Virus record (IMG/VR): IMGVR_UViG_3300044799_000049
Coordinates: 1-37,228 of that record
Origin: a virus
Length of the DNA stretch: 37,228 bases
Reading direction: 5' to 3' (one strand)
Shown in pieces: positions 274 to 23,686 of this stretch. The translations under genes were made by a program, and so were the position numbers. Numbering within the stretch: position 1 is the stretch's first letter; every line of letters begins with the position of its first letter. The notes beneath the pieces were generated by a model that was not told where the DNA came from, searched no databases, and worked only from the letters and a program-made list of their open reading frames with translations.

Positions 274-2265
274 ATGGCAGAAGAACTGCAAGAACTGTTA
301 ATAAGGGTCAAGGTTGACGCTGAAACAAAGAAGATAGAAATTGTTGACGCTAACCTGAAAAAAGTTGAGAAGGACGTCAGGGCGACACAAAAACCTACCA
401 AAGATTTAAGCGGTAATTGGAAATCACTTGCGTCTGCGTTTGGTCTTGGTGCTATCGCAGGTATGGGAACTGTGGAGATGTTGCGGTCAGTCGTGAATTA
501 CACGAAGGACGCAATAAAAGAAGCGGTAAACGAAATAAAATCAATAAAGCAGTTGCAGGTTGCACTTGAAAATAATGGCGTCGCATATAAAAGTATCAGC
601 AAGGACTTGGAAACGTTCTTCAAGTCAATGCAGAACCTGACACGGTTCAGTGATACGGATATGAGAAATACGCTTGCGAACTTGGTTCAGGCAACAGGCG
701 ATTTTGATACTGGGTTGAAACTGTTAAAAATATCAATGGACGTTGCGTCAGGCACGGAACAGGAGTTGTCGTCAGTGGCTACGGACTTCGGATTTGCGTT
801 GGTAAGACAGCAATTCGGTATGACAAGTTTGCAGAAAACTTACGGTGCTATGGTAGGCAAGGCAAAGGACGTCAATGAAGCGATAACTATTCTCGGTGAT
901 ACATACAAGGATTATTCAATAAAAGAGGAAGGAGTTATCAAAACAAGTTCGCAGTTAAGGAATAAATTTGACGATATAAAAAAGACAATAGGGACAGCGT
1001 TGATACCGATATTCCAGAAGTTGGGACTTCTTGCACTCGGATTTGTCGGTGATATGATTATGGCATTTGAGAATATGGGTATTGTTTTCAAGGGCGTGGT
1101 CAACGTTATGAAAGCGGTTGCACATAAGAATTTTACGGACATAGGAAGTATATGGAAGAAAACAACGGAAGATATGAATAAAAATATAGACGAACACAGG
1201 AAAAAACACGACGGCGTGCAAAATAAAATACAGCAAAAAATAAATCAGACGACGCAGTTGCAAATAAAGAACTGGCAGGAAATAAGGTCAACGTCGGAAA
1301 AGGTTGAAGCGGACATAATAAAACTGTCGCAAAGCGAATACCAGTCAAAGTTGGATTTGTTGAATAAGGACTTGGAAAACTTCCGTAAGATAGGATTTGA
1401 TAAGGTTGAGGCAGAAAAATACAACACTTATGAACGCCTGAAACTGCGTGAAATAGAACTTGCCGAACAGGAACGCATAAATGGAGTTGTGCAGACCTTA
1501 AATAAATTGCACCTGTCAACGATAAGGGACGACACCATACAGCATTTTGAAGAATTGAAAATAAATTATGAGGCAGACCTTGAAAGTTATAAAGTTCAGT
1601 TGGAAGAAAAGAAAATCACCGAAGAAGAATATCAACAGTTGACACTTGAAAGAGAACAGTCGTTCAGGGCAGAACAGCGTTCTTCACTTGAAGAATTTGT
1701 GGGTGGCTTTAAGACACAGTATGAAAACTTGAAAACCATATCAACCGCAACGACAGACAGTTTGACGGACAGTTTTGATAGTATGTTTCAGTCGTTTATT
1801 AGCACTGGAAAAATAACAAGTGAAAGTTTGAAGGGATATTTCAACGACATAAAAGACGCTTTCATATCGGCGTTGACAAAAATGTTTGCCGAATATCTGG
1901 CGAAAAAAATCATTTTCAGCATACTGGGAGTGGCTACTGGGGGGTTCAGTGGACTGGTCGGCAGTATTCTGGGAAGCAAACAATATGGCGGCGAGGTCAA
2001 GGAAACTGGTCTGTATCAGTTGCACAAAGGCGAAGAAGTTGTAAGACCCGAAGGCAAGGGTAATGCAGGCGGTGAAACAAAGTCAATAAGCATACAGGTC
2101 GGAAACATTGAAATAAGTTATCCGAATGTGTCGTCATTTCAGGACTGGTTGAACGCAGACCCAAGAGTGATAAAAAATGTCATTGAAAAAAAGATACTGT
2201 ATGCTATGGACGTTCTTGCAAAAGAAGGAAAAATTGACGATATAGTGAGGTCAAGGAGTATATGA
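274..2265 (+). CDS. Tail tape measure protein
   Basis: A 663-residue protein that sets tail length and is threaded through the tail tube during assembly. The N-terminal part (about 1-45) is polar and helical, followed by a Gly/Ala segment (about 55-70). Long helical and coiled-coil stretches cover about 90-490, with a hydrophobic patch near 240-275. The C-terminus has a hydrophobic Gly-rich segment (about 545-575) followed by the motif YGGEVKETGLYQLHKGEEVV, typical of lambda gpH-like tape measures. At about 0.15 nm per residue, the known rule for such proteins, the tail would be near 100 nm. No lytic transglycosylase or peptidase domain is evident. It overlaps the next gene by 4 bases (ATGA). 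Confidence 0.9.
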   Translation: MAEELQELLIRVKVDAETKKIEIVDANLKKVEKDVRATQKPTKDLSGNWKSLASAFGLGAIAGMGTVEMLRSVVNYTKDAIKEAVNEIKSIKQLQVALENNGVAYKSISKDLETFFKSMQNLTRFSDTDMRNTLANLVQATGDFDTGLKLLKISMDVASGTEQELSSVATDFGFALVRQQFGMTSLQKTYGAMVGKAKDVNEAITILGDTYKDYSIKEEGVIKTSSQLRNKFDDIKKTIGTALIPIFQKLGLLALGFVGDMIMAFENMGIVFKGVVNVMKAVAHKNFTDIGSIWKKTTEDMNKNIDEHRKKHDGVQNKIQQKINQTTQLQIKNWQEIRSTSEKVEADIIKLSQSEYQSKLDLLNKDLENFRKIGFDKVEAEKYNTYERLKLREIELAEQERINGVVQTLNKLHLSTIRDDTIQHFEELKINYEADLESYKVQLEEKKITEEEYQQLTLEREQSFRAEQRSSLEEFVGGFKTQYENLKTISTATTDSLTDSFDSMFQSFISTGKITSESLKGYFNDIKDAFISALTKMFAEYLAKKIIFSILGVATGGFSGLVGSILGSKQYGGEVKETGLYQLHKGEEVVRPEGKGNAGGETKSISIQVGNIEISYPNVSSFQDWLNADPRVIKNVIEKKILYAMDVLAKEGKIDDIVRSRSI

Positions 2266-2639
2266 GCAACGGAAACGTAATGGCACTTGAAGAACAGGGT
2301 GGAGTGAGGTTGGATTTCAGTCCGACACGTGAATACAAAAAACCCGATGATATGTTTGCGATACACCAACGTTCAAACAATGGCACATTGTATTCTTACA
2401 GGATTTATTGTAAACGCAGGTGGGAAGTTCCGTTGTCGCAGTTGGACAAAACAACCGCAGACCAGATAAACACGTGGTGGTTAAATTTGACGAACCTGAA
2501 ATTTTATCCCGACATAATAAACTTGCCTGCCGAATTTTATAATGTTCGTATAACGGATAACGACAGACCGTTGTCGGGAATGACGGACTGGGCGTGGGAA
2601 ACACTTTACGAAGGTTCAATGAAGGTTCAGGAGATATAA
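2262..2639 (+). CDS. Minor tail protein, distal-tail position
   Basis: A 125-residue protein starting at an ATGA overlap with the tape measure. It is rich in aromatic residues and beta-forming segments (KRRWEVPLSQL near 50, WAWETLYEGSMKVQE at the end), as in lambda gpM-like or short distal tail proteins that join tube and tip. The sequence match is too weak to name a family. The role is inferred from its place between the tape measure and the large tip protein, with shared translation. Confidence 0.6.
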   Translation: MSNGNVMALEEQGGVRLDFSPTREYKKPDDMFAIHQRSNNGTLYSYRIYCKRRWEVPLSQLDKTTADQINTWWLNLTNLKFYPDIINLPAEFYNVRITDNDRPLSGMTDWAWETLYEGSMKVQEI

Positions 2640-2640
2640 G

Positions 2641-3831
2641 ATGTTGCAGGTGTCAGTGGCTTTCAGAAATCAGTTGGACGACAAGATGTCCAAACCGAGA
2701 ATAACGTTTATGTATAAGTCCGTTGATGAAAGTGCGAGAATTGAGGACTTCGGTGTCGTGAACCGTCGTGGCGATAACTTGACAAGTGGCGACCTTATAC
2801 TGCCTTTACGAAATAGCGACAAATACTGGGACGATATAATTTCTAATATGCAAAATCATTTCTTGAAATATGGTGAAATGAGAGTAAGTTTTGATACCAT
2901 ACCTGCTGAATATATAACCGTGTTCAAGGCACAGTTGGAAAATGCAAGGTATAACAGCGACGGTGCGGAATTGAGTTTCAGGGACAGAATGGTTTATTTT
3001 TCGCAGAAAAAAGTCGGCAGTTCGCAAAATCCAATAAATTATTACGGTGGCGACTACAACCCTGCGGACTTGGTGTGGAGTGTGCTGACAGTTTATGGCG
3101 GTCTGTCAGGTCTTACCGACCCTTCAAATCCCGATATTGATTATAATGCGTGGTTGACGTGGAAATTGTATATGTCCACGTGTCAATATAAAATCAGGGG
3201 AAGGTTCACTGGACAGACGATACTGGACATATTAAATCAGGTAGGTGCAATAACAAGTAGCACGTTCTACACGGAAGGCGACGGAAAAATTAGGTGCGTG
3301 TTTTGGATAGGTCAGGATACCGCAGACATATTCAGTTATGGCGAGGACAGGAAAGAGGATATTGTTGTGCTTGACATTGACAGGTTGAATATGGTAAATA
3401 GATATGTAATTTATTATGGATACAACCCTGCAACAGAAACGTGGGCAGGAAATGTGGTTGTTGAGGATTTGAGTAGTCAGGCGATTTATGGTGTGCTTGA
3501 AGATGTTGCCGACAGCGACGTATTATGGCACTCAATTTATCAAAGTGCATTTGATTTTGCAACAAGAGAGTTGGACGAAACCAAAAAGCCGAAACAGGAG
3601 TGCAGGTTCAATGCTTTTCTGTCAGCGTTCACGCAACAGGTCAGCGACGGAATAAAATTGACGGACAGTTGTCATAATCTTACAAATCAGGGAATGAAAG
3701 TTGAAAGTTTGAGTTTTGACGTCAACAATATGAAGGTTGTCATTTCTGGGTATCTCACCACGCTGTTCCATTTTTTAATCCTTGACGATACATATTATGG
3801 TGTTCTTGACGACGTAAACGGTCTGATGTAA
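2641..3831 (+). CDS. Tail tip / hub protein
   Basis: A 396-residue beta-rich protein with many Asp, Tyr and Trp residues, third in the tail tip set after the tape measure. The ATG is 1 base after the previous stop and is preceded by GGAGAT. The order (tape measure, small distal protein, mid-size protein) matches the hub (Tal or lambda gpL/gpJ-like) position in siphoviruses, but no protease or cell-wall hydrolase motif is visible. Hub function is an inference from order. The length is short compared with lambda gpJ, so a separate receptor-binding protein is expected; the fibre-like genes here are candidates. Confidence 0.6.
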   Translation: MLQVSVAFRNQLDDKMSKPRITFMYKSVDESARIEDFGVVNRRGDNLTSGDLILPLRNSDKYWDDIISNMQNHFLKYGEMRVSFDTIPAEYITVFKAQLENARYNSDGAELSFRDRMVYFSQKKVGSSQNPINYYGGDYNPADLVWSVLTVYGGLSGLTDPSNPDIDYNAWLTWKLYMSTCQYKIRGRFTGQTILDILNQVGAITSSTFYTEGDGKIRCVFWIGQDTADIFSYGEDRKEDIVVLDIDRLNMVNRYVIYYGYNPATETWAGNVVVEDLSSQAIYGVLEDVADSDVLWHSIYQSAFDFATRELDETKKPKQECRFNAFLSAFTQQVSDGIKLTDSCHNLTNQGMKVESLSFDVNNMKVVISGYLTTLFHFLILDDTYYGVLDDVNGLM

Positions 3832-3841
3832 AGGGGGTATT

Positions 3842-4141
3842 GTGGAAGAAAAAATTATTGAGAAAATCATAGGCGAAGAACCGAGAAAAATCAAATGTTT
3901 CAGGTGCGGTAAAGAACAGACCGAGAGGGTGTTCGGCGAAGGGTTTATGGGGTGGCAGAAGTTGTCGGAAGTCGTCGCTGAAATTTCTATTCCGAAAACA
4001 ATATCGCAAAACGGAATAATCAGAACCGTAGTTGAGAAGGTGAGAGTAAATCCCGAATTGTGTCCGCAGTGTATGGCAGAATTTTGTCAGTGGTTAGAAC
4101 CGAAAAAACAGGGGGTAAACGCAAATGGCGGTCTGGTATAA
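3842..4141 (+). CDS. Zinc-ribbon protein in tail region
   Basis: A 99-residue protein with a GTG start just after a GGGGGTATT ribosome binding site. Two CxxC pairs are visible, KCFRCGK near residues 19-22 and LCPQCMAEFC near 73-80, which would bind one zinc ion. Similar Cys-pair proteins are scattered through this genome. It overlaps the next start by 17 bases. I cannot tell whether it is in the virion or acts as an assembly factor. Confidence 0.7.
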   Translation: MEEKIIEKIIGEEPRKIKCFRCGKEQTERVFGEGFMGWQKLSEVVAEISIPKTISQNGIIRTVVEKVRVNPELCPQCMAEFCQWLEPKKQGVNANGGLV

Positions 4142-4403
4142 TTTAACTTTTGCTTACAAAGAAATTCTAACGTCAACGAAGATGAACCAGTTGGACGGAA
4201 ACTTTGACGCACTTGCGGAAGGCGTTGCAGGTTCACCGTTGATACAGCGTAATGCGTTGCAGAACTCACTGATAAACGTTGATAAACTTGACAGTGGCAT
4301 TGACGCAAAGGCGAAGTTCTTTATATCGTATAACAGCGACTATCTTGACGGTTATCACGCAAGCGACATATTGTCGTTGACGTTGGCGTGGTCAATACTG
4401 TAA
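4125..4403 (+). CDS. Short tail fibre-related protein
   Basis: A 92-residue protein. Its N-terminus (KEILTSTKMNQLDGNFDAL, residues 11-29) resembles the conserved start of many phage tail fibre proteins, where a pattern like 'aakLNaLddai' anchors the fibre. Near the end, YLDGYHASDIL is another motif common in phage fibres. The protein stops soon afterwards, so it looks like a fibre reduced to its attachment part, or an adaptor. It has a GGGGGT ribosome binding site inside the previous gene. Confidence 0.65.
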   Translation: MAVWYNLTFAYKEILTSTKMNQLDGNFDALAEGVAGSPLIQRNALQNSLINVDKLDSGIDAKAKFFISYNSDYLDGYHASDILSLTLAWSIL

Positions 4404-4420
4404 TGTATGGGGGGTGAAAT

Positions 4421-4816
4421 ATGGCAGTAAATTTAAGGCGAGAAATAATAAACTTAGCTGTGCCTGCAAGTAGTGCGGCGGGTGTTTACATTTCAATAGG
4501 TCGTCCCGTAGGCGAGGTCTGGAAAATCTTTGCTTCTCTGGGGTCTGCATTAACAACTTCGTTATCAAATAAAATTACAGGAAATATACGGGGGTATAAT
4601 AACGCACAAACAGTCGCACTTGCTATGGCTATCGGCGGTTTCTTGGGGTGGGATAACCAAGTAAATGCATCTTTGTGTGGGGGAATGATTTTCACGTCGG
4701 GATTTTTTCACGGTGATGAAATAGTGTTTTACTGGGCGTATAATTATGAAAGCACTGTAAGAGCAATGGTAGGAACTTTTACTGGTGTTAATGTATCAGA
4801 CGGTGCAATAGTTTAA
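4421..4816 (+). CDS. Unknown virion-type protein
   Basis: A 131-residue protein rich in Gly, Ala, Ser and aromatic residues. The pattern (short beta segments, several Gly pairs such as IGGFLGW and LCGGMIF) looks like a small fibre head or decoration domain. No family is recognised. It has a GGGGGTG ribosome binding site 7 bases before the ATG and sits between two other small tail-region genes. Codon use is richer in GGT, TAT and ATT than in its neighbours. Confidence 0.6.
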   Translation: MAVNLRREIINLAVPASSAAGVYISIGRPVGEVWKIFASLGSALTTSLSNKITGNIRGYNNAQTVALAMAIGGFLGWDNQVNASLCGGMIFTSGFFHGDEIVFYWAYNYESTVRAMVGTFTGVNVSDGAIV

Positions 4817-4831
4817 GGGGGGGGGTGAATT

Positions 4832-5026
4832 ATGGCGTTGAGAAGATACTGGATACCTTTGGAAGTTAATCCCGATACACAGGCGTATCAACCGAAGAAG
4901 GTTGACGTTATGCACGACTGTAAAATCGTGTATGAGATACCCACGCAGGCGATAGTTGATATGAACACAACCGACGACGAACATACACAACTTGTAGCGG
5001 TTGCGACACAGTGGGAAGATTTATAA
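4832..5026 (+). CDS. Small unknown protein before ATP-grasp gene
   Basis: A 64-residue protein whose ribosome binding site lies in a run of nine G (4817-4825). Its stop is 2 bases before the ATP-grasp start, so the two are probably translated together. The sequence is acidic at the C-terminus with no Cys cluster or membrane segment. Its position directly before a peptide-modifying type enzyme makes it one possible substrate or partner, but nothing in the sequence proves that. Confidence 0.6.
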   Translation: MALRRYWIPLEVNPDTQAYQPKKVDVMHDCKIVYEIPTQAIVDMNTTDDEHTQLVAVATQWEDL

Positions 5027-5028
5027 AT

Positions 5029-6321
5029 ATGAAAATTCTCGTGTGGTCAAAATATGGCGACGCACTTTCACTTGCACGTTTAATGCGTGAGAAGGACAAC
5101 AACGAAGTCGTGCTTTACGTTGACATTGATTACAACAAGCGTGTAGGTGAAGGCATAATCCCGAAGGTTGAGAACTGGAAGGAATACGTGGACTGGGCAG
5201 ACCTTATCGTGTTTGACGACGAAAATCAGGGTAAATACGTTGAAGAATTGAGAGAAAAGGGTAAGGTTGTGTTCGGCACAAATGAGTTCGGTGGTCGTCT
5301 TGAAAACGACAGGGACTATTCGTTTGATGTGTCAAGGGACTTGGGCGTTAAGACGATACCATACTGGAAGTTCAAGAGTTTGGACGAAGGCATAAAATTC
5401 ATAAGAGAAAATCCGTCAAGGTATGTGTTCAAACCCTTCGGACAGCGACCACGATATTATACGAAGGTCAGCGAGATGATAACTGGCGAGGACTTGTTGT
5501 GGTTTATGGAATACCTAAAAAAAATATGGAAAGGCGGTCAGGACTTCATTTTGCAGAAATATATTGAAGGAATTGAAGTCGGGTGTTGCAGTTGGTTCAA
5601 CGGATACGAATTTTTAAGACCGTTTGAAATCTGTTTTGAACATAAGAAGATGAAAAACTACGGTGGCGGTGGAAACTGCGGTGAGGCAGGCAGTTTGATT
5701 TTCGCAAGTCCCGAAAGCAAAATCTTTGACGAAATCCTTGCACCGTTTGAAGAATGGTTGAAAAATACGAAATACACAGGTCAGTTTTATGCGAATACGA
5801 AAGTCAATGACGACGGAATATGGTTGTTGGAGTATGTTCCACGTCTGGGAATACCTGCGACGTATCTGTATAACGAACTTTTGCAGGAACGTTGGACTGA
5901 TGTTTTCAAGGGTATAGCGACAGGCGAGTTGAAAAAAATGCCTTTGGAACTGGGAAGGTTTGTCGTAGGGGTCAAGATAGACGTTGAACCCATACCCGAC
6001 CTTGACGCCGAAGCAACTTATACAGTGCCTGTTGAAACGCCAGTAAAGTTTGATTTTGACCCTATCGGTGCGGAAGCAGGTTTCTTTGAGGGTGATTTGA
6101 GAAAAGACAAAACAGAAAATCAATACTACCTTACAGGCAAACAGGGACACGTCGGAATTGTCGTGGGAAGCGGAAAGACCGTTCAGGAAGCACAGGATAT
6201 GTGCTATAAAGTCGTAGAAAAGATATTTTGTCCTTTCAATATAACCTTCAATGCGGAAATCGGCGAGAAATACGACTACGTTGCACCGTATTTAGTCAAA
6301 CAGGGTATCTTCAAAGTGTAG
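5029..6321 (+). CDS. PurD-like ATP-grasp ligase
   Basis: A 430-residue enzyme that should form an amide-type bond between a carboxylate and an amine using ATP. It has an N-terminal Rossmann-like part (MKILVWSKYGDA), then an ATP-grasp fold. KPFG (135-138) and QKYIEG (176-181) bind ATP; GGGGNCGEAGS (212-222) and FYANTKV...LLEYVPRLG (253-274) carry the metal and phosphate contacts as in GAR synthetase (PurD). No other purine genes are present, so nucleotide synthesis is unlikely. With the amidoligase and amidotransferase downstream it recalls the amidoligase clusters described for phages such as phiEco32, thought to modify peptides or cell-surface material. The start is set at the ATG 2 bases after the previous stop, rather than a GTG 18 bases upstream. 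Confidence 0.85.
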   Translation: MKILVWSKYGDALSLARLMREKDNNEVVLYVDIDYNKRVGEGIIPKVENWKEYVDWADLIVFDDENQGKYVEELREKGKVVFGTNEFGGRLENDRDYSFDVSRDLGVKTIPYWKFKSLDEGIKFIRENPSRYVFKPFGQRPRYYTKVSEMITGEDLLWFMEYLKKIWKGGQDFILQKYIEGIEVGCCSWFNGYEFLRPFEICFEHKKMKNYGGGGNCGEAGSLIFASPESKIFDEILAPFEEWLKNTKYTGQFYANTKVNDDGIWLLEYVPRLGIPATYLYNELLQERWTDVFKGIATGELKKMPLELGRFVVGVKIDVEPIPDLDAEATYTVPVETPVKFDFDPIGAEAGFFEGDLRKDKTENQYYLTGKQGHVGIVVGSGKTVQEAQDMCYKVVEKIFCPFNITFNAEIGEKYDYVAPYLVKQGIFKV

Positions 6322-6348
6322 TTCCTTCCTTCAAAATTTTTGCAAACC

Positions 6349-6432
6349 GCTAATTACTTATCTATACTTACGTTAAAATACTATGATAAGATAGGGGGGA
6401 GTATGAGGGGGGAAAGAGAAGATGAGCAAAAT
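6349..6432 (+). repeat. Early-region copy of related intergenic sequence
   Basis: Shares with 21760-21848 a series of blocks in the same order: GCTAAT, TTACTTAT, ATACTTACGTT, GAGTATG, a run of G, AAAGAGA and AGCAAAAT. Spacing differs by a few bases. The two copies lie just outside the two ends of the early and middle gene region. They may be regulator sites, promoters of a non-sigma70 type, or packaging or replication sites. Confidence 0.6.
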
Positions 6433-6501
6433 GTTGTCCCGATTTGCAACTGCTTTATAGGTCAAAACTGCAAAATAATGCAAAATTTCGTTGAATGGTA
6501 G
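6403..6501 (+). CDS. Possible 32-residue cysteine-containing peptide
   Basis: An ATG follows ATAGGGGGGAGT, a strong ribosome binding site, and opens a frame of 32 codons with three cysteines (CNC near 15-17 and one at 23). Its last residues, C-K-I-M-Q-N-F-V-E-W, are encoded by the dispersed repeat and match the frame used by the copies at 1-27 and 9679-9705. The related region at 21.8 kb does not keep this frame open, which argues against a gene. It could be a real small peptide or chance. Confidence 0.3.
   Translation: MRGEREDEQNVVPICNCFIGQNCKIMQNFVEW
6469..6495 (+). repeat. Copy 2 of the short dispersed repeat
   Basis: Matches 1-27 at 23 of 27 bases. The shared core is ATGCA, three variable bases, then TTTCGTTGAA. 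Confidence 0.5.
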
Positions 6502-6692
6502 ATTTCCTTCCGAATGTAATCCCGAAGTCAATTCAATGAAAAAACAAACCCAGTTGAGAATTACATCTGAAATGTGTCGTTGTCAAATCAGGCAACGCAG
6601 GTAGGACATTTTCAGGCATACCAAAAAAGGTTGTCAAAAAAGGTCTTTTCTGGGGTTTCAAAAAACAAAGGAAAATAAAGTTTATTTTTTGC

Positions 6693-6721
6693 TTGACAAT
6701 TATTAAAGGACTTTATACAAT
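6693..6721 (+). promoter_or_regulatory. Sigma70-type promoter P1
   Basis: TTGACA at 6693-6698, a 17-base spacer and TACAAT at 6716-6721. It points toward the early operon. A perfect inverted repeat starts 23 bases after the -10 box. A second, better promoter follows about 146 bases downstream. Confidence 0.65.
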
Positions 6722-6743
6722 TTATTACAAGATGACAGAAAAA

Positions 6744-6771
6744 TGTCGTCAAAAGTGGTTGTCCGACGACA
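6744..6771. promoter_or_regulatory. Inverted repeat, possible operator
   Basis: TGTCGTC at 6744-6750 and GACGACA at 6765-6771 form a perfect 7-base inverted repeat with a 14-base gap. It lies about 15 bases after the expected start of P1 transcripts. It could bind a dimeric regulator, such as the ribbon-helix-helix protein at 19.3 kb, or form a hairpin in the RNA. There is no T-run after it, so it is not an intrinsic terminator. Confidence 0.4.
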
Positions 6772-6838
6772 AATACCCCCCCCCCTGTTTCAAGGTCTTT
6801 CAGGTTAAGAAAAAAAATGCTGAAAATAAAAATAATGC

Positions 6839-6867
6839 TTGACAAACAATAAAATCTGTGATATACT
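6839..6867 (+). promoter_or_regulatory. Sigma70-type promoter P2, early operon
   Basis: TTGACA at 6839-6844, a 17-base spacer and TATACT at 6862-6867, with transcription expected near 6874. The flanks (ATAATGC before, ATTATTA after) and much of the spacer match promoter P4 at 20920-20948, so the two were probably copied from one another or kept under the same control. It would drive the 53-residue gene, the amidoligase, the amidotransferase and probably the long early operon. Confidence 0.8.
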
Positions 6868-6912
6868 ATTATTAAGGAAAGGCAAGGGACTTAATAAGGG
6901 GGGTGATTGAAG

Positions 6913-7073
6913 ATGACAAAAGGTGCAGACCCGAAGGAAACGAAAAGAAGTTATCGGTCAATAGGGTTTTACGAAATGATGACCGCAGGAAAGTTCAGGA
7001 CAGCGATAGTTAATCTATTGCTGTTATTTAATTTGTGCCAGTTGGCACATAAAATCTTAACAAGGGGGTGGTA
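6913..7073 (+). CDS. 53-residue peptide gene before amidoligase
   Basis: The first gene after P2. The ATG follows GGGGGGTGATTGAAG. The product has a basic, polar first half (TKGADPKETKRSYRS) and a hydrophobic helix near 31-44 (AIVNLLLLFNLCQLA), ending in HKILTRGW. The hydrophobic part is too short and mixed to call a membrane segment with certainty. The gene covers the ribosome binding site of the amidoligase and ends 3 bases before the amidoligase ATG, so translation is coupled. It has no recognised family. It could be a leader peptide controlling the ligase, or a small substrate of the enzyme cluster; both are inference. Confidence 0.6.
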
Positions 7074-7076
7074 GAT

Positions 7077-8240
7077 ATGTTAGGTGCAGACCCAGAATTT
7101 TTGATTATGAGAAGCGAGGATAACATTATTGACGCAAGCAGTCATTATGAGTTCAACGAAAGGGTTAGAGATAGCCGACTGCCAGGGAGTATCGGGACAG
7201 ACGGTTGTTCTACCGTCGGCGAAATCAGACCTTACCAGTGTTCAAGACCGCAGGCATTGGTTGAACGGTGCGGACAGATTTTGAAACTGGGGTTAGGCAA
7301 GGTCAATGACGCATACAGGATTTTTGCAGGCAGTGAAAAGCGAGGTTATGCGTTAGGTGGACACATTCACGTATCGTTTGCGGACAGAATAATGGACAGC
7401 GACAGGATAAACATTCTTGTCAGCGAACTGGCGAGATATGTGTCAATACCAATGCGGTGCGTAATGCCACCGCATACATTCAGGCAAAGGGTGGGACAGG
7501 GATATGGTGCTTTGTATGACCATAGGGTAAACAAGGGGTATGTTTTGGAATACCGTTCCCCTTCAAGTTGGCTTTGCGACAGGAAACTTGCGGAAGCGTT
7601 GATTTTTATTGCCCACGAAATTTCAAGGCGGTATATGTTGCTTGATTATGCACCGATACCAAGAGAAACTGTTGACGCTTACAACTGTTATGGTAGCGGT
7701 GGTGCAAGGGACACGGAACACAGGGAAAAACTGGTGTTGTTTACGAAGCAAATGCTTGAAGACATAAAAACTGAAAAAAAGCAATATATCCTTGACCTTA
7801 TTGAACGTAATGAATTTGTGAATGAAGAAGCGGATTTAAGGGAAGTGTGGCAGACAGGATACGAAGTCCCAGAAAAAATAGTTCAGGCAAGGATACAAAA
7901 CATTACTTTGAATGACGGTGATGAAGGACTTAACACAATAGCACGGTCAAGAGAATGGTTGAATTACGTCAGGAATAACAGGCAACTTTCAACAGGATTT
8001 ATGGTTTACGGAATAAAATCTGAAAGACCGTTGGGGATTTACGTAAGTTCAAGGATAAAAGACGTATTAAGCAGTCAGGGTATTGACGCAATAGCAGGCA
8101 GGGAAATCTTCGTCCACGATTTAAGTGGAAGTGGACGTGGTTTGAGTGTAGGGTTGCACAGAAGGGACAGGGATACTATGCCAGTTGAAATCATAGTTGA
8201 AATACTGGAAAAAATCTATAATACCATAAACGGAAACTAA
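7077..8240 (+). CDS. phiEco32-type amidoligase (COOH-NH2 ligase)
   Basis: A 387-residue enzyme of the glutamine synthetase-like COOH-NH2 ligase group, which joins a carboxyl to an amine with ATP. Visible signatures are GADPEF at 3-8, G-x-DG...GEIRP at 40-52 (metal and ATP contacts) and GGHIHVSF at 94-101, followed by an EYRSPSSW segment. Family members are known from phages such as phiEco32 and from bacterial peptide-modifying clusters. The ATG at 7077 is chosen because the GGGGGTGG ribosome binding site overlaps the upstream GTG at 7068. The C-terminal 120 residues are less conserved and may recognise the substrate. The next gene supplies ammonia, which suggests amidation as one possible reaction. 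Confidence 0.85.
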   Translation: MLGADPEFLIMRSEDNIIDASSHYEFNERVRDSRLPGSIGTDGCSTVGEIRPYQCSRPQALVERCGQILKLGLGKVNDAYRIFAGSEKRGYALGGHIHVSFADRIMDSDRINILVSELARYVSIPMRCVMPPHTFRQRVGQGYGALYDHRVNKGYVLEYRSPSSWLCDRKLAEALIFIAHEISRRYMLLDYAPIPRETVDAYNCYGSGGARDTEHREKLVLFTKQMLEDIKTEKKQYILDLIERNEFVNEEADLREVWQTGYEVPEKIVQARIQNITLNDGDEGLNTIARSREWLNYVRNNRQLSTGFMVYGIKSERPLGIYVSSRIKDVLSSQGIDAIAGREIFVHDLSGSGRGLSVGLHRRDRDTMPVEIIVEILEKIYNTINGN

Positions 8241-8256
8241 AAGGGGGGTGATAGTT

Positions 8257-9306
8257 ATGTGCGGAATAATGGGATATGTAAAACTGGAAGGGTGCGAAAT
8301 AGATGATAGGCAGTTATGGAAAAACGTAAAATATCTGTTAGAGGAATTGCAGTGGCGAGGTAAGGACGCAACAGGAATTGCGTATAGGAAAGGTGAACAA
8401 ACAATGGTTTGTAAAGCACCGATAACAGCAAAGAAATTTGTTGCAGATGAACAGTTCAGAAAACTCAAACAGAATATGCCGACGCTGTTTATTGCACATA
8501 CCCGACAGGCAACGCAGGGTAGTCCGCAGGATAACAGAAATAATCACCCTATTTATTCAAAGGAAAACGGTTGGGCGGTTGTGCATAACGGAATAATCTA
8601 CAATGACAAGGTATTGTTCAGTAAGTATGGTTTGCACAGGGACGCAGATGTTGACAGCGAAATCATACTGAAACTTTTTGAACATAAGTATAGCATTACA
8701 AAGAGTGCGGTTGAGAGTGCGAAAAGCATAATATCGGAAATAGACGGAAGTTTGACGTTTGCTTTTCTGACAGACGATAAAATAATCCTTTACGGAAACG
8801 GTGGAAGGGTGCATATTGCTTATGATGAACAGCAAAAGGTGATTTACTTCTCGCAGGACAACGATAGTTTAAGGAAAGTTTTATCAGGCAAGAAGGTAAT
8901 GAATTATTTTACTATCAGGACAGGCGACATAAGGGAAATTGATGATGACGAAATTTTGTTTTTATCAAACAGGGGTATATTGAAATACGAAGCACCGAAA
9001 AGAGAAACGACAGTTTACGGATACGCTAATCAGCAATACTGGGGGTGGGGACGTGGCAGGACTGATGACGAAACAAAGGAAGATAAGGGGTTCACTGTTG
9101 GAAGCAAGGCAGGGGAGTTTGTGCAGATAGGACAGGTGGCACAGGCGGTGTTAGACAAGGAAAACGAAAACAAGGACAGCGAAGTCCGTTGTCCCATAAA
9201 CTATTTCAAGTATTGCGAAACGTATCCCGAAATGACAATTACACAGGCGAAGGAAAGCGGATACTGTAATAAATGCGTGCAGGATATAATGGAAAGTTAT
9301 GATTAA
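8257..9306 (+). CDS. Class II glutamine amidotransferase
   Basis: A 349-residue Ntn hydrolase that frees ammonia from glutamine. The ATG at 8257, not the GTG at 8248, places the catalytic cysteine at residue 2 (MCGIMGYV), exposed once Met is removed. Glutamine-binding motifs are RGKDATG (34-40), HTRQATQGS (81-89) and HNG (110-112). There is no sugar isomerase or synthetase domain as in GlmS or AsnB. The C-terminal part has a Gly/Trp-rich stretch (QQYWGWGRGR) and a Cys-containing tail (CPINYFKYC...CNKC) that may bind metal. It probably passes ammonia to the amidoligase encoded 16 bases upstream, or to the ATP-grasp enzyme. Confidence 0.9.
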   Translation: MCGIMGYVKLEGCEIDDRQLWKNVKYLLEELQWRGKDATGIAYRKGEQTMVCKAPITAKKFVADEQFRKLKQNMPTLFIAHTRQATQGSPQDNRNNHPIYSKENGWAVVHNGIIYNDKVLFSKYGLHRDADVDSEIILKLFEHKYSITKSAVESAKSIISEIDGSLTFAFLTDDKIILYGNGGRVHIAYDEQQKVIYFSQDNDSLRKVLSGKKVMNYFTIRTGDIREIDDDEILFLSNRGILKYEAPKRETTVYGYANQQYWGWGRGRTDDETKEDKGFTVGSKAGEFVQIGQVAQAVLDKENENKDSEVRCPINYFKYCETYPEMTITQAKESGYCNKCVQDIMESYD

Positions 9307-9323
9307 AACAGGGGGTGGTTAAA

Positions 9324-9542
9324 ATGGCAGGCGACTTGTTTTTGGAAACCAAAGGCATAAAGTATCTCGGTATCGTTTGCGAGAGGTCGGACACCTTGAA
9401 CATTCAGGTAGTAGTGGGGTTCGGCAATTTTGAAAGTGCGGAAAAATGGCAAGATGAAGATAAGGTAAGCCGAAGGATTTACAGGGTTATGCTGAACACT
9501 GGAAGCGAGGATTTACTCTTGCAGTTGAAACGCAAATACTGA
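9324..9542 (+). CDS. Small unknown protein
   Basis: A 72-residue protein directly after the amidotransferase. The ATG at 9324 is used because GGGGGTGG forms the ribosome binding site. Short beta segments (IKYLGIVCE, LNIQVVVGFGNF) suggest a compact alpha/beta domain. No family is recognised. Confidence 0.65.
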   Translation: MAGDLFLETKGIKYLGIVCERSDTLNIQVVVGFGNFESAEKWQDEDKVSRRIYRVMLNTGSEDLLLQLKRKY

Positions 9543-17745: not shown

Positions 17746-17925
17746 ATGAAATGTCCGATTTGTAAGGGAAAGGGTGAAATAAATTATCCTAAAAATAATT
17801 TGCGTTTGTTGAGAGAACGAGCAGTAAAGATATTAAGAAAAAATGGGTTTGGACTGCGAGAAACACAAAGGTTAGTTGGGTATAAAAGTCCACATTCAAT
17901 TCAGCATTTAGAAGGGGGTGGGTAA
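17746..17925 (+). CDS. Cys pair plus helix-turn-helix protein
   Basis: A 59-residue protein with ribosome binding site AGGGGAGATG. The N-terminal CPICKGKG looks like half of a zinc-ribbon. Residues 20-55 (LLRERAVKILRKNGFGLRET, then QRLVGYKSPHSIQHL) fit a helix-turn-helix of the recombinase or sigma-like kind: a helix, a Gly turn, 'reT..lvGykSp.Si' as the recognition helix. It is a candidate DNA-binding regulator. Its last bases hold the ribosome binding site of the DUF5131 gene, which starts 1 base inside its stop. Confidence 0.6.
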   Translation: MKCPICKGKGEINYPKNNLRLLRERAVKILRKNGFGLRETQRLVGYKSPHSIQHLEGGG

Positions 17926-18557
17926 TGAATAGAACAACAATAGAGTGGACGGAAAGGACGTGGAAGATAACGGAAGGGTGCTTGCATAACTGTCCATATT
18001 GCTACACAAAACGATTTATGAAGGACAGGACGCCACGTTTCAGGGCAGACAGGTTGAAAGAACCTTACAGGATAAAAGAACCGTCGCTTGTATTCGTGGC
18101 AAACACTGGGGACTTGTTCGGGGATTGGCAGAAAGACGAAGATATAAAAAAGGTAATGAAGGTTATGGAAGAAAACCCACAGCACACGTTCCAGTTGTTG
18201 ACGAAGAACCCGAAGCGTATGAGTGAGTGGTCGTATCCTGCGAATGTATGGTGTGGAACTTCCATTGAGAGTGCGGATAAACTGGACAGGTTGAAATGGA
18301 TAAAGAGAATTTGTTGTGGCTTTCACTACATATCATTTGAACCATTGTTGGGATTTATTGGTGAACCCGACTTACAGGACATTGGTTGGGTAATAATCGG
18401 TGCGGAAACCGAGAAGGCAAGTCATATCCCGAAGGACGAAAGGCAGTCAAAGATATGGGCAGAACCTTTGATAAAATATGTCAAGGAGTGCAAGATACCA
18501 TTGTTCTTGAAACCGAACTTGCGGTGGCACGAAAAAATACAGGAGTTTCCGAAATGA
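17925..18557 (+). CDS. DUF5131 (phage Gp37/Gp68) radical-SAM-like protein
   Basis: A 210-residue protein. EWTERTWKITEGCLHNCPYC at 7-26 carries C19-x3-C23-x2-C26, the iron-sulfur motif of radical SAM enzymes, within the wording typical of the DUF5131 family. Other family marks are GDLFGDW, FQLLTKNPKRM, NVWCGTSIES and the WVIIGAE segment. The reaction of the family is not known to me. It is a little short compared with usual members. It overlaps the next gene by 4 bases. Confidence 0.8.
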   Translation: MNRTTIEWTERTWKITEGCLHNCPYCYTKRFMKDRTPRFRADRLKEPYRIKEPSLVFVANTGDLFGDWQKDEDIKKVMKVMEENPQHTFQLLTKNPKRMSEWSYPANVWCGTSIESADKLDRLKWIKRICCGFHYISFEPLLGFIGEPDLQDIGWVIIGAETEKASHIPKDERQSKIWAEPLIKYVKECKIPLFLKPNLRWHEKIQEFPK

Positions 18558-19288: not shown

Positions 19289-19552
19289 ATGGAAGATTAC
19301 AAAATCACGACTATTTCACTGGACAAGGAAAATCACGAATGGTTGAAGGCGGTAAACGAAAAGTTGGAAAAGAAACTCAAACTCGGTATCGGTGTCAGCA
19401 AAATCGTCAACATTATCTGTGAGATGATAAGGGAAGATAAAAGCGGTGAACTGGAAAAACAGGTGCTGAACGAAACGAAAGTTGAGTTAAAGACAAAGGC
19501 GTTTAACGAATACGTTGAAAAAACGAAAGGAGTGGATAAATTAAATGTCTAA
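19289..19552 (+). CDS. Ribbon-helix-helix DNA-binding protein
   Basis: An 87-residue protein. ITTISLD (5-11) should form the beta ribbon; two helices follow (ENHEWLKAVNEKL, then GVSKIVNIICEMIRE), as in CopG/Arc-type repressors. The C-terminal half is charged and helical, perhaps for oligomers. It is a candidate regulator of phage promoters or the partner of the ParB-like protein encoded next, with which it overlaps by 8 bases. Confidence 0.65.
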   Translation: MEDYKITTISLDKENHEWLKAVNEKLEKKLKLGIGVSKIVNIICEMIREDKSGELEKQVLNETKVELKTKAFNEYVEKTKGVDKLNV

Positions 19553-20174
19553 AAATATCCGACTTAAAATCGTTTACGTCAAGATAGACGACCTGAAACC
19601 TGCTGAATACAACCCACGTAAGATAACAAACAAGGTCGCTTACGATATTAAGAACAGCATTGAGAGATACGGTATTGTTGACCCTATCATTGTCAATGGT
19701 GCGAAGGAAAGATTTAATGTCGTGATAGGGGGACACTTGCGGTTGCGTGTTGCGAAAGAACTGGGGTATGAGGCAGTGCCTTGCGTGTATCTGAACATTC
19801 CCGACATAAAAAAAGAGAAGGAATTGAATTTACGGTTGAATAAAAATCTCGGTGAATGGGACATAGGACTGTTGGCAGGATTTGAGAAGGACTTGCTGTA
19901 TGATGTGGAGTTTTCAAGCGAAGAACTGGAAGGCATTTTCAAGAACGTCGGCAGTGATAACAGGGAAGAACGGTTGGTTGAAGATATGGAATTGAAGGCG
20001 TTTGAACATTACGATTACGTTGTGTTTGTGTTCAGGAACGTCTATGACTGGATTAAGACGTTGCAGACATTTGAAATCAAAGATGTCAATTACAGCGTAG
20101 TCGCAAGCAAGAAAAAAATCGGACTGGGGAGAGTGATAGACGGTGCAAAACTTTTGGAAAAACTTAAAGTTTAA
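19545..20174 (+). CDS. ParB N-terminal-domain protein
   Basis: A 209-residue protein with the ParB/Srx-like fold: VKIDDLKPAEYNPRK (12-26), then GIVDPIIVN and the GGHLRLR motif at 62-68, the nucleotide and phosphate site. Only the N-terminal domain is clear, and the DNA-binding HTH of plasmid ParB is missing. In phages this type often sits beside DNA-modifying enzymes, and here a TET-associated-type glycosyltransferase overlaps its end by 32 bases. The C-terminal part (from about 125) is acidic. Confidence 0.8.
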   Translation: MSKNIRLKIVYVKIDDLKPAEYNPRKITNKVAYDIKNSIERYGIVDPIIVNGAKERFNVVIGGHLRLRVAKELGYEAVPCVYLNIPDIKKEKELNLRLNKNLGEWDIGLLAGFEKDLLYDVEFSSEELEGIFKNVGSDNREERLVEDMELKAFEHYDYVVFVFRNVYDWIKTLQTFEIKDVNYSVVASKKKIGLGRVIDGAKLLEKLKV

Positions 20175-20889
20175 GGTAGTCATTCTTTCAAGGGGACGGT
20201 GGAAAGTGATGATTACGCACAAGTTATTCCCCGACGCTGTGCTTGTCGTCCCCGAAAGCGAGAAGGAAAATTATAGCGGATACAAACTTCAAATCAAAAC
20301 CGTGCCTGATGAAATCGTCGGGTTGAGTAAACTCCGAAACTGGGTGTTGGATAACTTCTGCGAAGAAATAATTTTAATGGTAGATGACGACGTGAAATGT
20401 TTGAGTTATGTCGCAGGATACCTGACAAGGCGAATTATAGAACCCGAAGTCGTGTGGCAGATAGTTGAAAACACTGGACTGTGTGCAAAGGACATAGGGA
20501 CAAGTTGTTTCGGATTTAATCAGAACTGGGACAGTAGGAAGTATCAACACAACAAACCCTTCAAATTGTCGGGGTGGTGTGGCGGTGCAATAGGGGTAGT
20601 GGGCAGGAAAATTCGCTTTTTTGAAAGAAATATGTTGAAGGTTGATATTGACTACTGCTTGGAAACAATGTTGAAGGACAGGATACTGTGGATAGACAAC
20701 CGATATGCGTTCTACCAAATCAGGAATATAAACGTAGGTGGCAACAGCACGTTCAGGACGAAGGAAAAGGTCAGGCAAGAGATAGCGAACCTGAAAGAGA
20801 AATGGGGTAAATTCTTCGTGCATAAATACACACGGACAGGCGAAGAAGTGCAGATAAAGGTTGACAGGACGCAGACCATAAACGCATAA
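20143..20889 (+). CDS. TET-associated-type glycosyltransferase
   Basis: A 248-residue GT-A-like glycosyltransferase. FKVVILSRGRW (10-20) with SRGR at 16-19, PDAVLVVPESEKENY, LRNWVLDN and the sugar-nucleotide and metal motif DDD at 81-83 match the TET-associated glycosyltransferase group, predicted to add sugars to hydroxymethyl bases in phage DNA. No TET/JBP oxidase, hydroxymethylase or methyltransferase was found in the window, so the acceptor is unknown and could be a protein. The start is a GTG inside the ParB-like gene; no ATG lies in frame before residue 23. Confidence 0.75.
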   Translation: MQNFWKNLKFKVVILSRGRWKVMITHKLFPDAVLVVPESEKENYSGYKLQIKTVPDEIVGLSKLRNWVLDNFCEEIILMVDDDVKCLSYVAGYLTRRIIEPEVVWQIVENTGLCAKDIGTSCFGFNQNWDSRKYQHNKPFKLSGWCGGAIGVVGRKIRFFERNMLKVDIDYCLETMLKDRILWIDNRYAFYQIRNINVGGNSTFRTKEKVRQEIANLKEKWGKFFVHKYTRTGEEVQIKVDRTQTINA

Positions 20890-21848: not shown

Positions 21849-21875
21849 CTTTTTAGAAGGTTGAAAATTTTTCAC

Positions 21876-21904
21876 TTGACAAGTTTGGGAAAATGCGTTA
21901 TATA
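21876..21904 (+). promoter_or_regulatory. Sigma70-type promoter P5, terminase
   Basis: TTGACA at 21876-21881, a 17-base spacer and TATATA at 21899-21904. Hexamers plus spacer match P6 at 22 of 29 bases. Transcription would start about at the terminase ATG (21912), giving an mRNA with almost no leader. Confidence 0.7.
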
Positions 21905-21911
21905 CTTATCA

Positions 21912-22274
21912 ATGGCACACCGTAAACCCTACAAACTGGACAACTATAAAAAAGAACAGTGGCTTGAAGATTATAAAAAGAGTGGGTCGTTTACGAATTC
22001 CTGTATGTCTATTAAGATGTCAAGGGCTTCGGTGTATGACGCACTGAAAAGAGATAGTTCGTTCAGAGAAAAAAAAGAAGAAATTGACGAACTCATAAAT
22101 GACACTGTTGAAGGGCGGTTGTTCGCTTTAACCAAAACAAATCCTACCGCTTGCATATTCTGGTTGTGCAACCGCAGACATTTGAAATGGAAAAACCTGA
22201 ATGAAACCAAACACCAGTTCCCGAATGAAGTCAATGAGGCGTTGGATAAAATAGCAAGTGTGCTAAAAAAATAA
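21912..22274 (+). CDS. terS: Terminase small subunit
   Basis: A 120-residue protein that should recognise the packaging site. A helix-turn-helix lies at about 22-48 (GSFTNSCMSIKMSRASVYDAL), followed by helices and the segment NPTACIFWLCNRRHLKW, typical of phage small terminases and related HTH proteins. The ATG at 21912 has no ribosome binding site and lies at the expected start of P5 transcripts. A TTG at 21861 lies upstream of the promoter and is not used. One base overlaps the large subunit gene. Confidence 0.75.
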   Translation: MAHRKPYKLDNYKKEQWLEDYKKSGSFTNSCMSIKMSRASVYDALKRDSSFREKKEEIDELINDTVEGRLFALTKTNPTACIFWLCNRRHLKWKNLNETKHQFPNEVNEALDKIASVLKK

Positions 22275-23686
22275 TGCCCAAGTGTAAAACTTCAAGCGTA
22301 GATATTTCAAAATTCTCCAAACTATTCAAAGATGATGACGGTAATGAGTTAATTCTCACCGAAGGTCAAAGTCAAATCTTCAAAGTAATCCTGAACCGAG
22401 AACCAAAACGCAACGTTGCGATTACTTGCACGCAGTATGGAAAGTCATTGACCTGTGCGTTAGGTATGGTTATCAGGGCTTCTTCTGTGCCGAATGACAA
22501 GTGGTGCATAATCGGTGCGACGGACAAAAAGGCAAAGATTATGATGAACTACGTCATTCAGCATATTTTTGATAACACGCTTTTTTATTCGCAGTTAATT
22601 GCCGATACGTCCCTTGAAAGATTACGGACTGAACGCAGTAAGGAAAGGTTGACGTTCAGACGTGGCGGTGAGATTTACATATTGTCCGCACAGGCGAGAA
22701 ATAGGAAGGCGGTAATCAATGCGTTGATAGGATACGGAAACAAGAACATTATTGTTGACGATAGTGGACTGATAGATAACGATTTATACGCTATGATAAA
22801 AAGAATGTTAGGTGGACGCAAGGACAGTTTCTTATTGGAAACAGGAAATCCTTTTAAGCGTAATCATTTCTTCAAAGCACTCCATTCGTCAAGGTATAAC
22901 AAAATAGTTATTGATTATGAACAGGCGTTGAGAGAGGGTAGATATACGCAGGACTTCATTGACGAAATGAGAGAAGAAGCGTTCTTTGATGTGCTGTATA
23001 GTTGCAAGTTCCCCGAAGCAAACGAAATAGATGAATACGGTTGGACTGTTCTCATTCCCATTGAAGATATTGAAAAGAGATTTGTCAATGAACTGCCGAA
23101 GTTGACTACGAATAAAATACTGGGAGTTGACGTGGCGAGAGGTGGAAACTTCAATACTTATGTGTTAAGGACGAAAGAAGTGGCTTGGTTAAAATCAAAA
23201 GACAGAAACAATGATACTATGTCAACAGTGGGAAGGATAGAGCAAGTGATGACGGAAGAAAACGTAAATCCGAGTGATGTCTATATTGATATGGTCGGAC
23301 TGGGCGGTGGAATTGTTGACAGATTAAGAGAACGCAAGATTTATGTGAATGGAGTTAATGAAGGCGAAAGGGCAGATGACAGTTCAAGATATTCAAACAG
23401 GCGTGCGGAAATGAACTGGCGAATGAAGAAGTGGCTTGAAGAAGGTGGGAAGTTGTTGAGAAATGATGACTTTTATCAGATAGCCGACAATAAATATAAG
23501 CCCGACAGTTCAGGTAAAGTCAAGATGATGTCAAAAGAAGAATTGAGATTAAACGGAATAAGCAGTCCTGATATAAGCGACGGACTTTCATTGACGTTTG
23601 CAAAGGACTATGTTCAGGCAGTGAAGATGAGTGGACTGCAAATTACAGGGATAGGGCAAGTTGAGAGTGCAGGAATTTACAGATAA
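22274..23686 (+). CDS. terL: Terminase large subunit
   Basis: The 470-residue packaging motor. ATPase: a variant Walker A, CTQYGKS at 52-58, and Walker B ending VDD at 161-163, where Asp replaces the usual catalytic Glu. RNase H-like nuclease: D286 (GVDVARGG), D339 (YIDMVGLGGG) and D436 (SPDISDGLSL). It cuts and pumps DNA into the head through the portal encoded next. No ribosome binding site is visible, and translation probably depends on the small subunit. Confidence 0.9.
   Translation: MPKCKTSSVDISKFSKLFKDDDGNELILTEGQSQIFKVILNREPKRNVAITCTQYGKSLTCALGMVIRASSVPNDKWCIIGATDKKAKIMMNYVIQHIFDNTLFYSQLIADTSLERLRTERSKERLTFRRGGEIYILSAQARNRKAVINALIGYGNKNIIVDDSGLIDNDLYAMIKRMLGGRKDSFLLETGNPFKRNHFFKALHSSRYNKIVIDYEQALREGRYTQDFIDEMREEAFFDVLYSCKFPEANEIDEYGWTVLIPIEDIEKRFVNELPKLTTNKILGVDVARGGNFNTYVLRTKEVAWLKSKDRNNDTMSTVGRIEQVMTEENVNPSDVYIDMVGLGGGIVDRLRERKIYVNGVNEGERADDSSRYSNRRAEMNWRMKKWLEEGGKLLRNDDFYQIADNKYKPDSSGKVKMMSKEELRLNGISSPDISDGLSLTFAKDYVQAVKMSGLQITGIGQVESAGIYR

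Follow-up and report, generated by a model that had tools for sequence, protein, structure and literature searches.

A late PurD-like ATP-grasp gene and an early ligase-amidotransferase gene pair, very likely separate units, adjoin in a viral record

Three genes of amide chemistry, all of them open and intact, lie close together in the window, by which we mean the whole 37,228-base IMG/VR record analyzed here. They had been proposed from the sequence as a single cluster, consisting of a PurD-like ATP-grasp gene, a COOH-NH2 ligase gene and a class II glutamine amidotransferase (GATase) gene, and the open reading frames were found where that proposal had placed them (Table 1). Pfam family searches agreed with all three enzyme assignments. 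The split arrangement described in the original prediction was also confirmed: the ATP-grasp gene, which starts 2 nt past the stop of the preceding tail-unit ORF, ends the tail unit, and a noncoding gap of ~590 bp with two sigma-70-like sites separates it from the ligase and GATase genes, which begin downstream of these sites and are spaced by 16 nt. The sites at 6693 and 6839 were the two best in the region covered by the promoter scan, each with 11/12 matches, and a scan of the + strand from the ATP-grasp stop to these sites found no terminator-like site. The best start of the ligase gene, ATG 7077, is preceded by AAGGGGGTGG. The 53-aa ORF directly upstream is coupled to the ligase gene and had no Pfam match; speculatively, it is possible that it encodes a leader or substrate peptide. 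Most of the small ORFs in the tail unit had no family match, and codon use did not separate the ATP-grasp, ligase and GATase genes from each other. No end repeat was found in the 37,228 bases, and a near-DNA search with the window retrieved no related phage.

Table 1. Features of the window between the tail unit and the end of the GATase gene
Feature	Position	Strand	Evidence
Tail unit (tape measure gene and following ORFs) ending in the ATP-grasp gene	274..5026	+	PHROG tape measure match, ORF map
Late PurD-like (GARS fold) ATP-grasp gene (ATG 5029, stop at 6321, 430 aa), of a viral and cellular family that is uncharacterised as far as our tools show	5029..6321	+	GARS_A, purD score, fold, alignments, residue table
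Noncoding stretch at the late/early boundary; holds two strong sigma-70-like sites (6693-6721, 6839-6867)	6322..6912	+	Promoter scan
Small ORF, 53 aa, directly 5' of the ligase gene	6913..7074	+	Sequence and RBS
COOH-NH2 ligase gene (PF14395, predicted glutamine-synthetase-like fold; ATG 7077, stop at 8240), first large gene of the early operon	7077..8240	+	PF14395, motifs, Foldseek
Class II (Ntn, Cys2) GATase gene with two C-terminal Cys pairs (ATG 8257, stop at 9306)	8257..9306	+	GATase_6, catalytic motifs

The ATP-grasp protein matched Pfam GARS_A (E 8e-9) and scored 79 bits against the NCBIfam purD model (TIGR00877), the cut-off of which is 288. The 15 best PDB fold matches of its predicted model (pLDDT 79) were all PurD/GARS structures, with TMq values of 0.68-0.76. 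A tblastn search gave one phage relative with 28-30% identity, MW202796.1 (42140-43468), in which the copy is unannotated and comes immediately after the final annotated tail-region gene. Scans of viral contigs with single proteins, either the ATP-grasp or the ligase, retrieved nothing. A profile scan started from the MW202796.1 copy yielded 190 candidate viral loci; 80 of these were retained, and a clade-specific scan added five more. The profile of this family retrieved PurD structures at 1e-45, and a GARS_C-like domain was present in 20/21 members, none of the 21 having a match in PHROGs. Three INPHARED matches (MT838306, MT837288 and MT836161) were considered as further phage members and rejected: all are true PurDs, and those of MT838306 and MT837288 are surrounded by genes for purine synthesis or of other chromosomal type, so the three records served as PurD references only. 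By the searches made here, the PurD-like proteins form an uncharacterised family outside PHROGs.

Compared with PurD/GAR synthetase (TIGR00877), the window protein retains the overall fold, the ATP-grasp lysine and the catalytic Glu and Arg, but its gene stands alone, its score is far below the cut-off, and the GREH, TGGMG, ExN, GDPE and SP.P features are lost. An alignment with three true PurDs showed that the loss extends to the whole family, including the N-terminal GREH loop and the SP.P segment; the glycine of TGGMG is replaced by Glu, and both the Asn of ExN and the DPE of GDPE are gone. Four residues, K135, N256, E268 and R272, were kept in 26/26 members. We take Lys135, Glu268 and Arg272 to be core ATP-grasp residues, that is, the ATP-grasp lysine and the catalytic Glu and Arg. 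Asn256 is new relative to PurD and invariant across the family; its position presumably corresponds to the metal-ligand site of D-Ala ligases, and the ExN asparagine is presumably the Mg asparagine of PurD. The window copy has the family features EHKK, GE.G, N256 and E268..R272, and differs from the family residues at three positions (K142 to R, T217 to C and R408 to N).

In the phylogenetic tree, the window gene grouped with a cellular clade and one viral locus, L013 (support 100/97), on a long branch of 1.6. By residues and tree, it is a member of the family found in MW202796.1, in IMG/VR records and in DPANN, CPR and Bacteroidota, from which it differs in its long branch, in the type of phage and in its position at the end of a tail unit. 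Cellular homologs were detected in Micrarchaeota, Aenigmatarchaeota, Woesearchaeota, CPR, Bacteroidota and other groups, and a true PurD was also present in 18/22 of the genomes that carry one. Because the PurD motifs are lost and the homologs coexist with true PurD in cells, the PurD-like protein is probably not a purine enzyme. At one locus, in a Gammaproteobacteria MAG, the PurD-like gene lies behind an ATP-grasp gene and a PGM1-type ATP-grasp gene; this single case is compatible with amide ligation.

The gene upstream of the PurD-like gene was on the same strand in 77/79 viral loci, and within 50 bp in 71; tail or ejection clusters were located upstream in 41/45 loci having >5 kb of upstream sequence. 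At L013, L127 and L002 the gene follows tail or ejection-type genes, as it follows the tail unit in the window. Podovirus-like carriers have it directly after large ejection-protein-like genes, and in some carriers the ejection-like genes and the PurD-like gene are followed by fibre-like, lysozyme and spanin-like genes. It is this position that would favor a PurD-like enzyme packaged in the virion and ejected to act in the newly infected cell. However, in other carriers the gene has the portal gene on one side and head protease/capsid genes on the other (L129 and L130), or is flanked by a Phage_base_V spike gene and a gp25 baseplate gene (L128), and such packaging seems unlikely to us. The factor common to the PurD-like loci, which come from very different types of phage, is a virion operon, and no particular neighbor. 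GNAT genes also recur near these loci.

The two early genes belong to families that are better known in phages. The ligase matched PF14395 with an E-value of 2e-29 (103 bits, curated cut-off 25), and its GADPEF, DG..ExRP, GGHIH and ExR motifs were nearly invariant across an alignment of 8 members. Its predicted model, of low confidence (pLDDT 61), had YbdK, glutamine synthetase and Dop as best Foldseek matches (E 4e-8, TM ~0.4). The GATase matched GATase_6 (E 2.6e-13) and has the catalytic motifs Cys2, HTR, HNG and DVDSE. Judged by sequence, the window ligase is very divergent: tblastn against 50,697 phage records returned nothing even at E 10, and the eight-member alignment was too diverse for scanning. 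Two ligase-motif scans led to seven other viral contigs, and in 7/7 a class II GATase was the next gene (L133, L138, L139, L140 and L141) or lay one small gene beyond the ligase (L137 and L142), the GATases of L140 and L141 having been missed by the Pfam search and called from Cys2/HNG motifs and weak BLAST matches. A RimK-like ATP-grasp was found further on in 4/7 contigs, with only L133 run against Pfam (a match below cut-off) and the others called by eye; it is also present in LUZ24 and thus is not universal. Neither is gamma-glutamyl cyclotransferase, which was detected in LUZ24 and in L140, the latter having cyclotransferase, ligase and GATase genes. In L142 and L137 the ligase is followed by genes of 150-196 aa, and by eye it seemed plausible that these share an accessory domain with the C-terminus of the ligase, but the similarity was no better than that of shuffled sequences, and therefore no such sharing is claimed.

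Amidoligase genes of the phiEco32 type have been discussed in the literature following Iyer et al. 2009. The likeness to phiEco32/LUZ24-type genes on which the original prediction drew holds for the ligase and GATase, and LUZ24 has the same kinds of genes: two ligases, a GATase, a RimK-like gene and a gamma-glutamyl cyclotransferase gene close together. The window resembles LUZ24 in having a PF14395-type ligase and a class II GATase in an early, replication-side region, as well as in the C-terminal Cys pairs of the GATase (compared by eye), but it lacks the second ligase (Amidoligase_2), and searches of it for a RimK-like ATP-grasp (best E 0.28) and a cyclotransferase gave no match. Such genes have been reported for UFV-P2 as well (PMC3890496). 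Alteration of host wall material, a modified peptide and the hiding of a virion protein, the roles suggested for the three genes, are guesses, the first of them repeated in the literature by papers citing Iyer 2009 (PMC10580990, PMC11318856). The ligase-GATase pair is a reduced, divergent addition to an already known phage module, and would represent its ligase-GATase(-RimK-like)(-gamma-glutamyl cyclotransferase) composition with the last two components absent.

Searches across the two sets of relatives separated the pair from the PurD-like gene. Among 48 records with the PurD-like family, none had PF14395 and none had GATase_6 (0/48 each), and the LUZ24 positive control was detected in both searches; conversely, the PurD-like family was found in 0/8 ligase-GATase records (the seven contigs and LUZ24), again with a working positive control. 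Since many of the compared records are fragments, single absences are weak; the summed mutual absence is strong evidence. The three-enzyme cluster of the original prediction therefore did not survive as the default reading: the three genes do not occur together in the relatives, and the ATP-grasp that accompanies the ligase and GATase there is RimK-like, a family other than the PurD-like one. It is very likely that the pair and the PurD-like gene are two separate units, and their closeness is probably due to chance at the late/early boundary, where two independent amide-forming units would meet because the last late gene neighbors the first early genes.

A caution should be noted: both units are present in the window, where the pair has no RimK-like gene, and the PurD-like enzyme could have taken that vacant slot. 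All three enzymes would then serve one pathway, with the PurD-like ATP-grasp in place of the RimK-like one. Besides the empty slot, the span of 4.3 kb and the membership of all three genes in amide-chemistry families are in line with such a replacement. However, the combination was present in no other record compared, and the genes lie to either side of the late/early boundary, separated by two promoter-like sites, which makes a common pathway quite unlikely.

For the pair, a different role would be DNA base hypermodification together with the TET-associated glycosyltransferase (TAGT) gene at 20143, which matched its family at 1.1e-9 in the window; TAGT was also found in one other ligase record, G078. 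Against this, TAGT was absent from 6/7 other ligase contigs and from LUZ24, and no TET/JBP match was obtained in the window, in a search whose positive control did not ring. We regard this role as very unlikely. G078 was also examined as a possible relative of the window phage and rejected: the ligase and a ParB-TAGT pair are common to both, and it is otherwise an unrelated phage.

We favor two units with different timing. In the early unit, the ligase, with its predicted glutamine-synthetase-like fold, would join a carboxylate to an amine using ATP, and the class II GATase would free ammonia from glutamine or else remove or transfer the product amide. In the late unit, the PurD-like ATP-grasp would be an amide ligase that uses ATP and is produced alongside the virion proteins; its predicted fold and conserved residues suggest carboxylate-amine ligation, in which an amino acid or a similar amine may be added to a small molecule or to a protein, either of the virion or otherwise late. 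We give this explanation as a whole, an early pair next to a late, virion-linked PurD-like amide ligase, a probability of roughly 60%. That the enzyme acts on a virion or late protein is a tentative proposal, as neighborhood in a late operon is no proof. It is more doubtful that tailed phages of widely differing types carry a dedicated late ligase of PurD origin by which a virion protein receives an amino acid or similar amine as the particle is assembled.

Viral purine synthesis is the least likely use of the PurD-like gene, less likely than ejection or replacement of the RimK-like enzyme, and highly improbable: the purD match, below cut-off, and the PurD fold would fit it, but the score is far under the purD cut-off, the PurD motifs are lost family-wide, true PurD coexists with the homologs in cells and the viral genes sit in virion operons. 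Metagenome papers have taken viral purD calls as purine synthesis (PMC11097641, PMC12043954).

Whereas the ligase-GATase pair is a minimal, divergent example of a phage module, the PurD-like family, widespread in viral contigs and absent from PHROGs, outweighs it in importance. The family matches the purD model only and may therefore be filed as viral purine metabolism, a label against which both its residues and its operon setting speak. If the PurD-like enzyme does modify particle proteins, this would be a new step of virion maturation, and an unrecognised maturation chemistry would have been annotated as purine metabolism.

The PurD-like ATP-grasp family includes a 443-aa ORF that lacks annotation in the complete phage record MW202796.1. 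In a Gammaproteobacteria MAG (L105), the PurD-like gene belongs to a row of three ATP-grasp genes (generic, PGM1_C-bearing and PurD-like). In the Bacteroidota chromosomal copies (L102, L104, L106 and L108), a GNAT-like gene, Pfam-checked in L102, lies just downstream of the PurD-like gene; some phage copies have a GNAT gene about four genes upstream. True purD was found in three phage-labelled INPHARED records (MT838306.1, MT837288.1 and MT836161.1). In the first two, it is surrounded by other bacterial purine or chromosomal-type genes, and these records are therefore probably bacterial DNA rather than phage.

Features and their positions
Feature	Record	Positions	Remark
53-aa ORF	window	6913-7074	coupled to ligase
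GATase Cys pairs	window	9190-9300	
DUF5131 / radical-SAM gene	window	17925-18557	early region; match 1.1e-37
ParB_N gene, TAGT glycosyltransferase gene, terminase genes (in this order)	window	19545-20889 and 21861-23686	
ParB-TAGT pair	G078 (L150)	3888-7078	adjoins apparent terminase genes
PurD-like ORF	MW202796.1 (L002)	42140-43468	
Three ATP-grasp genes	L105	487-4588	
GATase with Cys pairs	L144	1132-2088	
GATase with Cys pairs	LUZ24 (L003)	8001-9530	
Macrodomain-like gene	L142	12855-13376	by eye

The GATases of the window, of the viral contig L138/L144 and of phage LUZ24 all close with two Cys pairs, which, judged by eye only, look like a zinc ribbon. In the 137-kb viral contig L142, the macrodomain-like gene follows ligase, GATase and RimK-like genes. 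Another ligase-carrying record, G078, has a ParB-TAGT pair comparable to that of the window phage, despite the two phages being otherwise unrelated.

The 53-aa ORF of the window has a charged N-terminal half and a hydrophobic C-terminal half, and is a candidate leader or substrate peptide.
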